Origin: an uncultured Gammaproteobacteria bacterium
Lineage (GTDB): Bacteria; Pseudomonadota; Gammaproteobacteria; UBA4575
Direction of reading: 5' to 3'
DNA length: 64,000 nucleotides
NCBI GenBank assembly: GCA_951812785.1
Contig: OX638335.1
Location: 1,913,712 to 1,977,711 of the forward strand
A model generated the notes under the pieces. It was not told the origin of the DNA and did no database searches. It saw nothing but the letters and a program-made list of their open reading frames with translations. Position 1 is the first letter of the stretch; every line of letters begins with the position of its first letter. Position numbers and translations under genes: made by a program. This document shows, in pieces, positions 60,241-64,000 of this stretch.

Positions 60241-60948
60241 CTAGTTGACTGGCAGTTTCGCACGTAATTCATCTCTATCGAACCACCAGCTGCTGCCTAC
60301 AATCGCATCAATCATTTTACCTAGACGAGTAAACATCTCGTCTAGGTTATTCAATTCTAGCATTTCAATCCATATTTGAATTGACTCTTCATCTTCAATG
60401 TCGCGATGCCTTTTAGCCACCACAGCAATTAGCTGCTTAGCTAAAAACATTAAACTTTCTTTTTCTTCATCTTTACTACGCAACTCAGCGAGATATAACG
60501 CCGCAACACTTGCTACTGCAGCACCATCTGAGTTGTCTGGTGTTTCATCAATAATGTAAGACAACATATCTACCGATAATGCAGATTCCACGGGGTAGGT
60601 CACCGCTAACCAACACGCATGCCCAAGCGCTGTAATTGAGTCATCCTGTTCTGACAAATAAAGTAATTCACATGCTTCCACTGCCTGTTGGAAACATTCA
60701 CTTTGTATAAACGTTTTAACTAATGGGCGAGCTTCTTGCCAACAAGTGACATGCTTACCTAAGCCTAATTGAGCTCTGGCTATATTCAGTTTCACTTTAG
60801 CCACATCAACCAAGTCAGCCTTGTCACCTAACTCGGCTAGCTGCTGCATAAGTTGCTGTATTTCTTTTTCAAAAAATACATGTGCGTCACCCAAGTCTTG
60901 ACCACTAATGGTTTCTGACATCGCTTTGGAAAGAATTTCTCTACTCAT
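60241..60948 (-). CDS. Helical protein of unknown function
   Basis: 235 residues, acidic, Leu/Ala-rich, mostly helical by composition; no signal, membrane segment or catalytic motif seen. TPR-like spacing of alanines and large residues (VKLNIARAQLGLGKHVTCWQ, QAVEACELLYLS) suggests a solenoid. Convergent with the HSGYxGS-repeat gene, 13 bp apart. Not recognised. Confidence 0.6.
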   Translation of the reverse strand: MSREILSKAMSETISGQDLGDAHVFFEKEIQQLMQQLAELGDKADLVDVAKVKLNIARAQLGLGKHVTCWQEARPLVKTFIQSECFQQAVEACELLYLSEQDDSITALGHACWLAVTYPVESALSVDMLSYIIDETPDNSDGAAVASVAALYLAELRSKDEEKESLMFLAKQLIAVVAKRHRDIEDEESIQIWIEMLELNNLDEMFTRLGKMIDAIVGSSWWFDRDELRAKLPVN

Positions 60949-61160: not shown

Positions 61161-62303
61161 TTAAGCGTAGTTAGCGATCTGATTCATTTCAGCAGCTACT
61201 TTGCGCTCGCCTTCAGATGCCATCTCATCATCCCACTTGTTCATCTGCTCTTTCATGTACTTATGCCATATCGGCGGTAACAATGCCAATGCAAACAGCG
61301 TGAAGTACCCGCGACCACAATTCGGAGAGCCTACTTCGTCTAACTCCCAAAAATGGGTCTCGCCACGGTCGTGGTGATCACCTTGACGACCAATCTCAAT
61401 GAAAAACCAGCTAGTGAATGCCGTGCTGTTATCCCAACTATGTCGATAATCAATCGGCTGACCTTTCTCGCGAATTAAACCGTAGTGCTCAAGGTAGTTC
61501 AATGCTTCTAACTCAAAGTTAGAGATCAACCACACGATCGCTAAGCACCCTATGCCTATCCAGCCACCCACAAACCAGAACAATAAAACGGTGGGTAATG
61601 CCATGAAGTATCCTCGGATCCAGCGGTTCTGCCATGATAAAAATGGTACGCCTAGTCTTTCTAAACGTTGCTTCTCCATCACGAATAAGAATTTACTTTG
61701 CCCTATGCCAGACAGTGGGTAATGCTTGTATAGGCTTCTTCCTCGCGGCGCAGTCGCCGGATCATCTACATGACCTAGCTCTAAGTGATGGTTGTATACG
61801 TGGGCATAGCAGAAGTGTGCCTTGCCTGATAACGCCATCATCCAGCGCGCAATCACAAAGCTGAAGCCTTTGGTATGTGCCAACTCATGACCGTAGATAA
61901 TCCCGATGCCGGCAAAAATACCCGTTGAAATTGTCGCTCCAATTAACTGTGACCCTGTAATGCCATCTTGTATTGTCATGCCTAGTAGGCTTGACTCGAC
62001 AATAGGAACGCCTGTCATGTATTGGAATATGCGCCAAGCTAACACTATCTGTAAGCAGATGAATACACCTAGCATGCCGTACATCACACCATTGTGTAAT
62101 GAGGGAATCCCATACAACTCACCGTCTTCGTCAAAGCCTGCACCCGGGGTTTGGGCTTTGGTTAATGTGTCGATAATAATCCCGACACCCAATAGTGCTA
62201 CGCCTGTCCATACCCATGGACCGCCCGCTAACACACCAAACATCGCCGCTAATATCAGCAATGGTGCTAAAAAATAACGCACATTAATTAAAATTTTCTT
62301 CAT
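61161..62303 (-). CDS. AlkB/XylM-like membrane di-iron monooxygenase
   Basis: 380 residues from ATG 62303, which has AAGGAGG at ideal distance; an in-frame start eight codons upstream is less likely. Six or so membrane segments. Histidine boxes: HELAH (139-143), HVYNHH (168-173), NYLEHYG with His273, and a third box RQGDHH (306-311) where AlkB/XylM have RHSDHH. DDPATAPRG (180-188) is XylM-like. It should hydroxylate alkanes, alkyl-aromatics or related hydrophobic carbon. No rubredoxin or reductase gene is adjacent. It is divergent from a MerR-family regulator gene. Confidence 0.85.
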   Translation of the reverse strand: MKKILINVRYFLAPLLILAAMFGVLAGGPWVWTGVALLGVGIIIDTLTKAQTPGAGFDEDGELYGIPSLHNGVMYGMLGVFICLQIVLAWRIFQYMTGVPIVESSLLGMTIQDGITGSQLIGATISTGIFAGIGIIYGHELAHTKGFSFVIARWMMALSGKAHFCYAHVYNHHLELGHVDDPATAPRGRSLYKHYPLSGIGQSKFLFVMEKQRLERLGVPFLSWQNRWIRGYFMALPTVLLFWFVGGWIGIGCLAIVWLISNFELEALNYLEHYGLIREKGQPIDYRHSWDNSTAFTSWFFIEIGRQGDHHDRGETHFWELDEVGSPNCGRGYFTLFALALLPPIWHKYMKEQMNKWDDEMASEGERKVAAEMNQIANYA

Positions 62304-62389
62304 CCGTACCTCCTTAACAGTCACCACTCAAAGCATGATATAGAATAAGTGCTTAATAGTTGGCGTTAACTATAGCAAAACCATTCCCA

Positions 62390-62407
62390 ATTACCAATAT
62401 TGGTAAT
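62390..62407. promoter_or_regulatory. 18-bp perfect palindrome, putative operator
   Basis: ATTACCAATATTGGTAAT is self-complementary and lies 87 bp upstream of the AlkB-like start. Confidence 0.5.
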
Positions 62408-62416
62408 CTTTTGTCT

Positions 62417-62440
62417 TGTACATTCCGATGACAATGTACT
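62417..62440. promoter_or_regulatory. TGTACA-N12-TGTACT, putative LitR/CarH-type operator
   Basis: As recalled, LitR/PplR-type regulators bind T(G/A)TACA-N12-TGTA(C/T)A; this site matches all but the last base and has the exact 12-base spacing. It overlaps a GTACATT/AATGTAC dyad. It sits between the AlkB-like gene and the LitR-like gene. Confidence 0.55.
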
Positions 62441-62445
62441 AAAAT

Positions 62446-62464
62446 TGTCCGATATAGTCGGACA
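62446..62464. promoter_or_regulatory. 7-bp dyad TGTCCGA-tatag-TCGGACA
   Basis: Perfect inverted repeat with 5-base spacer, 51 bp before the regulator start. Possible autoregulatory site. Confidence 0.45.
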
Positions 62465-62515
62465 TAAGAAGTACATAAAGCTGGACAAATACATAACAAA
62501 ACGAGCGCAATCAGA

Positions 62516-63487
62516 ATGGAGACTAATGTCACAAATCCTCAGCACCCTATACAAGTGGTTGCCAGACGCACGGGCTTAACTGCGGATGTCATCCGCGCAT
62601 GGGAAAGACGTTATCAAGCAGTCACTCCACAACGCGCAGCCAACAATCGCCGATTGTATTCGGATCTTGATGTCGAAAAGCTCGGTTTATTAAGAAAAGC
62701 TACCTCGGCAGGTCGCCGTATAGGTGATATTGCCAATCAAGCCATTGACGAGCTTTACGCATTAGTCGAGAACGACGAATCGGCAGCGGCGCAAGCCCGA
62801 AACATTCCTTCAGAGCGTCCAAACACAGGTTCTGTGATGGAACATTTTGAAGAGTGTTTGGATGCCATTAATCATATGCAACCTAGCGCGTTGAAAGCCA
62901 GCTTAGTAAAAGCTGCTAATACATTAGGCATTCCATTTTTATTAGAAGACTTACTGCGACCTCTCATTGCTTATGTTAGAGACGAATGTCGACGCGGCAA
63001 CATGCGTCTGTCTCAGGAAAGAATGGCCACTGCTATGGTACGTTCTTATATGTGTACTTTGACCGCTTCCAAAAATGAACACGACTCCAACTATAATTTA
63101 GTTGTGACTACACCGATGGGGCAGTATTACGATTTAATTGCACTACGCATGGCAGTGGCAGCCAATTTATACGGATGGAATTCTATCTACTTAGGCACTG
63201 AGTTACCTGCCGACGAAATAGTCTACGCTTGTGCGCACACTCGAGCCTCTGCTGTCGCATTAGGCATCGCAAGACCTGCTGACGATCCTCATTTACCCAA
63301 TGTGCTGCGTCAAATCAAAGATTCGCTATCAGGAAGAACTACATTGATTGTATGCGGTAACGCTGTATCAGGTTACACTGAGGTTGTAGAAGAAGTTAAC
63401 GCAGTTGTTGTTCAAGCTATGGGTGAATTAAGACTAGAATTAGATCGCCTAAAGCGTCCCATCTCTGCTTTTCTTGAAGACGAATAA
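62516..63487 (+). CDS. LitR/CarH-like MerR-family regulator with degenerate cobalamin-binding domain
   Basis: 323 residues. An N-terminal MerR winged helix (about 11-55, VVARRTGLTADVIRAWERRY) is followed by a four-helix bundle and a Rossmann-like B12-binding domain (about 190-300). In CarH the light-sensing bundle carries W-x9-EH; here the aligned residues are Cys158, Glu168, Arg169. The cobalamin motif E-x-H-x-x-G aligns with Gln203-Tyr204-Tyr205-Asp206-Leu207-Ile208, so the axial His is replaced. The fold is retained, but canonical adenosylcobalamin sensing looks lost. Divergent from the AlkB-like gene, upstream of fabA by 34 bp. Confidence 0.85.
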   Translation: METNVTNPQHPIQVVARRTGLTADVIRAWERRYQAVTPQRAANNRRLYSDLDVEKLGLLRKATSAGRRIGDIANQAIDELYALVENDESAAAQARNIPSERPNTGSVMEHFEECLDAINHMQPSALKASLVKAANTLGIPFLLEDLLRPLIAYVRDECRRGNMRLSQERMATAMVRSYMCTLTASKNEHDSNYNLVVTTPMGQYYDLIALRMAVAANLYGWNSIYLGTELPADEIVYACAHTRASAVALGIARPADDPHLPNVLRQIKDSLSGRTTLIVCGNAVSGYTEVVEEVNAVVVQAMGELRLELDRLKRPISAFLEDE

Positions 63488-63521: not shown

Positions 63522-64000
63522 ATGACTCGACCCTCTAGTTTCAGTTACGAAGAACTTATCGCTTGTGGCAACGGAGAAATGTTTGGCCCAGGCAATGCTC
63601 AACTTCCAATACCTAACATGTTAATGGTAGACCGTGTAATGACTATTAATGAAGACGGCGGCAACTACAAAAAAGGTAAAATTATTGCCGAACTAGACAT
63701 CAAACCAGAGCTATGGTTCTTTGATTGTCATTTCCCAGGTGACCCAGTGATGCCAGGTTGCTTAGGCCTTGACGCTATGTGGCAGCTAGTTGGATTTTAT
63801 CTAGCCTGGCGCGATAACCCTGGACGAGGACGTGCACTAGGTGTGGGTGAAGTGAAATTCAGCGGGCAAGTATTACCTACTGCTAAAAAAGTTACCTACG
63901 AAATAAATATAAAGAGAATGATCACACGTGGCGTGGCATTGGGTATTGCTGACGGTATTATGTCTGTTGATGAGCGCGAGATTTACCATGCTAAGGATTT
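63522..64000 (+). CDS. fabA: 3-hydroxydecanoyl-ACP dehydratase/isomerase, cut by window end
   Basis: 159 residues visible of the usual about 171. The active-site segment [22 protein letters not shown] holds the catalytic His and, 14 residues on, Asp. It introduces the cis double bond in unsaturated fatty acid synthesis, type II. Close spacing to the upstream regulator gene allows co-transcription. FabA occurrence points to gamma- or alphaproteobacteria. Confidence 0.95.

Follow-up and report, generated by a model that had tools for sequence, protein, structure and literature searches.

A LitR/CarH-lineage MerR regulator with substituted cobalamin-binding residues beside fabA and an AlkB-like gene in a gammaproteobacterium

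Introduction

The conversion of a cofactor-bound light sensor into something else is, as a rule, pieced together from its end points. This question is raised by a gene located at 62516..63487 (+) of the window, the 64,000-nucleotide stretch of DNA analysed here, which encodes a LitR/CarH-type MerR regulator of 323 amino acids (ATG start) lacking the B12 signature of CarH. Two B12-independent groups have already been described, namely class II LitR, which has a LOV partner (PMC9758184), and CarA, a paralogue of CarH that functions independently of B12 and has lost the Trp of the Wx9EH motif (PMC9304148); B12 independence itself is therefore not new. New here are the graded motif series among relatives, the setting next to fabA and an AlkB-like gene, and the one operator-like array, and no MerR/CarH regulator was found described in the literature together with fabA and alkB. 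Related genomes hold apparent steps of the conversion, with a Trp to Cys exchange at an intact cobalamin site and then the loss of the His ligand. This loss is accompanied by the loss of other B12 proteins, while gene order and operator array persist. The locus may also explain how an AlkB-like enzyme is coupled to unsaturated fatty-acid synthesis.

Domain order and cobalamin motifs

The regulator comprises a helix-turn-helix (HTH) domain (residues about 10-75), a four-helix region (about 107-182) and a Rossmann-like part (about 195-305). The initial annotation had proposed that the fold order of the LitR/CarH family (MerR, helical bundle, B12-like domain) is kept and that the cobalamin signature was lost by substitution at exact spacing. 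Pfam recovers the order MerR_1, B12-binding_2, B12-binding, the latter two below their thresholds (21.7 bits against a cut-off of 23, and 19.7 bits against 32.1). The best full-length family is NCBIfam NF052513 CarH, at 73 bits against a curated cut-off of 400, and CarH is the best solved relative by both sequence and fold. Full-length CarH also ranked first in a Foldseek search with an AlphaFold model, a weak check of fold order given the mean pLDDT of 50 and 3 alignment rows, which make the model too poor for judging the pocket or the placement of Cys158.

Indexing of the translation placed C158 (codon 62987..62989, +, converted from the residue number), E168 and R169 in the four-helix region and QYYDLI at residues 203-208 (63122..63139, +). 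In phmmer alignments with Thermus CarH/LitR (5c8d, 3whp), C158/E168/R169 fall on Wx9EH and QYYDLI on ExHxxG, both motifs being gap-free, and Y205 occupies the position of the lower axial His. E168 is kept, and only the Trp and the His are gone from Wx9EH. The ortholog alignment shows QYYDLI, LGIARP and VCGNA at the D/ExHxxG, SxT and GG positions, respectively, so that lower His, EH His, SxT and GG are all changed. Cys158 has no exception among the 14 rows of the first ortholog alignment or anywhere in the Cys group, and because of this invariance the motif substitutions are, as judged from the alignments, neither chance nor misalignment. W221 and Y287 are likewise invariant across the 14 rows. 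The proposals on residues, spacing and fold order were all borne out.

Between the host and a second species (G002), dN/dS was 0.028 over the complete gene, with 0.039 in the HTH and 0.032 in the Rossmann part, rough values since dS is near saturation. Judged by sequence, the B12-less regulator is under strong purifying selection, including its C-terminal domain, and is no decaying relic. Our main reading, which we hold to be probable, is that this LitR/CarH-lineage MerR factor no longer binds cobalamin.

Relatives and the order of the changes

Full-length orthologs were identified, among 143 relatives, in 12 genomes of the host family f1 (49-90% identity) and in G057 and G102. When 369 genomes of the class were searched with a profile, G303, G225, G197, G257, G342, G327 and three genomes of family f142 were added, and a scan of named genomes yielded two orthologs only. 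When these relatives were placed in one alignment, three motif states were observed. W-x9-EH and QxHxxG are kept in G257, G342 and G327, both f85 genomes carry C-x9-EH together with QxHxxG, and the members from f1, f40, G197 and f142 have the Cys and lack the lower-ligand His. The Pfam B12-binding score is graded as well, from 43.8-51.5 bits in L113, which has W/EH/QxHxxG, and L015, which has C/EH/QxHxxG, through 19.7 bits in the host regulator to no match (L014, L114).

In a maximum-likelihood tree, with a midpoint root and some long end branches, the Cys members group together (93/86), the His-less members form a group inside them (100/99), and the W-bearing rows lie outside. The simplest reading of these sequences is that Trp was exchanged for Cys first and that the His was lost later. 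Since f85 has the Cys with EH and QxHxxG intact, the Cys would predate the loss of the B12 ligand, and Cys158 is probably not a simple replacement for B12. At the motif level, the loss is lineage-wide and seen in all orthologs, which supports the suggested descent from a LitR/CarH ancestor by substitution of cobalamin residues. The f85 relatives exhibit the motif pattern of Myxococcus xanthus CarA, in which the Trp of Wx9EH is lost and EH and the B12-binding motif are kept. The host regulator differs from CarA, which depends on the antirepressor CarS, in having lost both motifs.

Gene neighbourhood

Upstream and divergent lies a gene for an AlkB-like membrane di-iron monooxygenase of 380 amino acids (61161..62303, -), with a conserved ATG at 62303 and a mechanical open reading frame from a GTG at 62327. 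Among solved structures, it is significantly related only to alkane 1-monooxygenases (8sbb, 8f6t), and it carries the NYxEHYG motif. Downstream, 34 bp after the regulator, fabA (3-hydroxydecanoyl-ACP dehydratase/isomerase; 63522..64000, +) continues past the end of the window. FabA is essential-like in many bacteria, and its cotranscription with the regulator may thus be incidental.

The order AlkB-like (divergent), regulator, fabA is kept in three families, represented by f1, f40 (G057, G303) and G197, where the regulator is only about 42% identical and the AlkB-like protein about 75%. In f40, the regulator and fabA overlap or abut. Several draft contigs stop at the AlkB-like gene, so only the regulator-fabA part is visible there. 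Other neighbours were observed in f85, f142 and the W-bearing relatives. Genus g6 has fabA and its neighbour but neither the regulator nor the AlkB-like copy next to it; fabA there adjoins the gene found after the AlkB-like gene in other genomes, with no AlkB-like gene or regulator between them. A 235-amino-acid protein without a Pfam match (60241-60948 of the window, -) is found beside the locus across f1, also in the regulator-less g6. In drafts of G003 and G004, which belong to one genus, the regulator ortholog and fabA are both missing, through real loss or an assembly gap.

Putative promoters and operator-like sites

The regulator and fabA are preceded by a putative promoter, TTGTAC-N18-TAAAAT (62416..62445, +), which occurs in 7 orthologs with TAaaAT, TATAAT or TATTAT as its second element and is absent from the five orthologs of the g3/g4 group. 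On the other strand, a putative promoter of the AlkB-like gene, TTGGTA-N17-TATAGT (62369..62397, -), has the same form in G002 and G008 only.

The -35 of the regulator-fabA promoter is overlapped by a TGTACA-N12-TGTACT element (62417..62440, +), inside which lie a first pair of ACA half-sites 11 bp apart. This element differs by a single mismatch from the published site of class II LitR (PplR/PmlR2), T(G/A)TACA-N12-TGTA(C/T)A (PMC9758184), and orthologs of g1, g2 and g5 show 1-2 mismatches. One-mismatch matches are expected by chance 0.88 times per window, so the weight of the element comes from its recurrence at the same distance in orthologs.

Between the putative start point and the ATG, we identified a four-site operator-like array, GACA-N8-ACA-N8-GACA-N8-ACA (62461..62498, +), with half-site spacings of 11/12/11 bp. 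Each of 7 f1 genomes carries the exact pattern at one place only, in every case upstream of the regulator; at one mismatch, two other matches were found in 19 genomes, and a reversed control pattern gave 0-2 per genome. The spacing was first spotted by eye in these same sequences, and the regulon search was by pattern only. Of 23 upstream regions, 13 contain the 11/12/11 ACA chain, those of both f40 genomes among them. When each region was shuffled 2000 times, the chain appeared at most twice, and no other spacing triple (10 to 13) was seen in more than 2 regions. Upstream of the regulator in G197 and f142, the array is absent. The W-bearing relatives L111, L112 and L113 instead have TTGTCyAGGACAA-like palindromes upstream, which may be their operator.

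CarH operators consist of tandem 11-bp nnnnTnnACAn repeats overlapping the -35 or -10 (PMC9304148). The putative operator resembles these in that its ACA half-sites follow one another at roughly one helical turn and that it overlaps a putative promoter. With T at -3 of ACA (CarH consensus TnnACA) in some repeats only and one spacing of 12 rather than 11 bp, the array would consist of imperfect CarH repeats. PmlR2 likewise has one site on the -35 and another between start point and ATG (PMC9758184), an arrangement of class II LitR that the layout of the putative sites at this locus resembles, with its TGTACA-N12-TGTACN-type element on the -35. The initial annotation had also suggested that the regulator may be tied in function to its AlkB-like and FabA neighbours, and this idea gains support from the gene order kept in three families and the array found at this locus only.

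B12 and photoreceptor proteins in the genomes

In the host genome, PF02607 has a single match, the regulator gene itself, and PF02310 and PF02607 recognise no other B12 protein; a PF02310 match at C1:1620838 was rejected as IMP dehydrogenase next to guaA. Across 23 genomes, a second strong B12-binding_2 match was present in 5 of 5 with a His-keeping regulator versus 1 of 18 with a His-lost one (Fisher p 1.8e-4, with no phylogenetic correction and non-independent lineages, f1 alone making up 12 of the 23 rows). The extra matches in the His-keeping genomes are open reading frames of 1233-1462 amino acids, the size of MetH, which were not read individually. The sole exception with a His-lost regulator is a 744-amino-acid frame in G057.

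A LOV core pattern had no match in the single-contig host genome or in 18 relatives, although the LOV pattern and PAS searches could overlook a divergent LOV. Two PAS_9 matches in the host genome were considered as LOV partners and rejected; both are below cut-off, and the one that was read is an NtrY-like kinase. BLUF had no match in the host genome. BLUF proteins are present in G002, G006, G008 and G011, a patchy distribution that does not track the presence of the regulator. The lack of LOV and BLUF matches in the host genome argues against the two known light-partner schemes and not against schemes with another kind of photoreceptor.

Proposed mechanism and alternatives

With moderate confidence, we propose from the sequence features that the regulator acts locally and without B12, repressing both the regulator-fabA transcript, and hence its own expression, and the neighbouring AlkB-like copy. 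It would bind the putative ACA array as paired dimers, assembling independently of B12, and would block its own promoter through the half-site pair at the -35 and the array downstream of the likely start. Autorepression is proposed because this pair overlaps the -35 and the array lies just past the likely start point. The regulator-fabA transcript, and probably that of the divergent AlkB-like copy, would then be repressed. The release trigger may be tied to the target enzymes, with a fatty-acid- or hydrocarbon-derived ligand of the remodelled C-terminal pocket as perhaps the most likely candidate, and the redox state of Cys158 or a partner protein as less likely ones. Fatty-acid sensing, also raised in the initial annotation, is hinted at solely by the gene context. 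Against a pure repression reading, the 18-bp promoter spacer also fits MerR-type activation; for BluR, a promoter with an 18-bp spacer is the target of a repressor (PMC3509220). With one small locus and one putative operator per genome, the new signal is directly testable. More tentatively, and as a possibility that we would not yet favour, a cobalamin photoreceptor may have given rise, through steps still represented by living relatives, to a B12-free lipid, hydrocarbon or redox sensor that controls fabA-based membrane-lipid unsaturation and one of two identical AlkB-like copies.

The regulator could instead be a ligand-free constitutive autorepressor that only sets the level of regulator-fabA, its degenerate domain serving as an oligomerisation module. 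The putative operator does overlap the regulator's own promoter, and the authors of the PmlR2 work assume that the C-terminus is an oligomerisation domain. We regard this as unlikely: the Rossmann part and the HTH are equally constrained and the new residues W221 and Y287 are invariant, which suggests a pocket or a partner surface. A redox or electrophile switch at Cys158, in place of the photosensory Trp, seems quite unlikely. The Cys is invariant across the clade, including f85, even where other motif residues drift, and msrB and a truncated globin gene are neighbours of the second AlkB-like copy. However, the Cys already accompanies an intact cobalamin site in f85, so that it would predate cobalamin loss and may be structural, and with just one conserved Cys in the four-helix domain of each subunit the chemistry is only putative.

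Very unlikely, in our judgement, is a light-signalling repressor with a separate photoreceptor protein, such as the short LOV protein of class II LitR or the BLUF protein of BluR. The near-identity of TGTACA-N12-TGTACT to the class II site, the four-helix domain kept without B12 residues as in PmlR2, and the BLUF proteins of four relatives would fit such a scheme, but the host genome offered only sub-cut-off PAS_9 matches and neither a LOV core nor a BLUF match, and BLUF presence does not follow regulator presence. That the regulator still binds cobalamin, or some other corrinoid, in a base-off or His-off mode that dispenses with the axial His is highly improbable. The persistence of domain order, residual Pfam similarity and E168 speaks for it; the alteration of all four motif positions and the lack of any other B12 protein recognised in the host genome speak against it.

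The preferred reading, a B12-independent local repressor, can be placed among known systems as follows. CarH and class I LitR (Thermus, Bacillus megaterium, Myxococcus) share the domain order and are the best PDB matches by sequence and fold, whereas the regulator lacks Wx9EH, the lower-ligand His and adjacent carotenoid genes. Class II LitR (PplR1-3 of Pseudomonas putida, PmlR2 of P. mendocina) likewise lost the B12 residues and kept the four-helix domain; unlike these, the regulator has fabA and an AlkB-like gene as neighbours rather than a LOV gene, and no LOV partner was detected in the host genome. We file it as a member of neither class, the comparison with class II being one of features. 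BluR/MlrA of E. coli similarly combine a MerR-like HTH with a non-metal C-terminal domain, but BluR has 243 amino acids and is antagonised by BluF, and only the HTH of the regulator matches the MlrA model.

AlkB-like copies and paralogues

A second chromosomal copy of the AlkB-like gene is 100% identical at the DNA level over about 1150 bp (window 61161-62313 versus G000:C1:1628960-1630112, L161), the identity spanning the coding region and ribosome site only. Within G002 and G014, the copies are also 100% identical (three species in all), despite a synonymous divergence between host and G002 of about 0.9. From these sequences, the copies look like a case of ongoing gene conversion; long-lasting concerted evolution has been reported as rare in prokaryotes (PMC6053082). 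Many draft contigs break at the AlkB-like gene. No operator site was found at the second copy, which lies in a same-strand cluster of msrB, AlkB-like, truncated globin, GST-like and 2Fe-2S/FAD/NAD reductase genes (L161 2348-6691; G000:C1:1626347-1630690), where the reductase could plausibly provide dedicated electron supply for the AlkB-like enzyme.

A third AlkB-like paralogue, 61% identical, was identified at G000:C1:431059-432201 (L167). The genome also encodes a paralogous MerR regulator beside a urea-type ABC transporter set (L034 9472-10485; G000:C1:531471-532484). This paralogue (C1:531489), which was set aside, has a different, widely conserved C-terminal domain (CECPxHLxxLIxSL) that is unnamed by Pfam.
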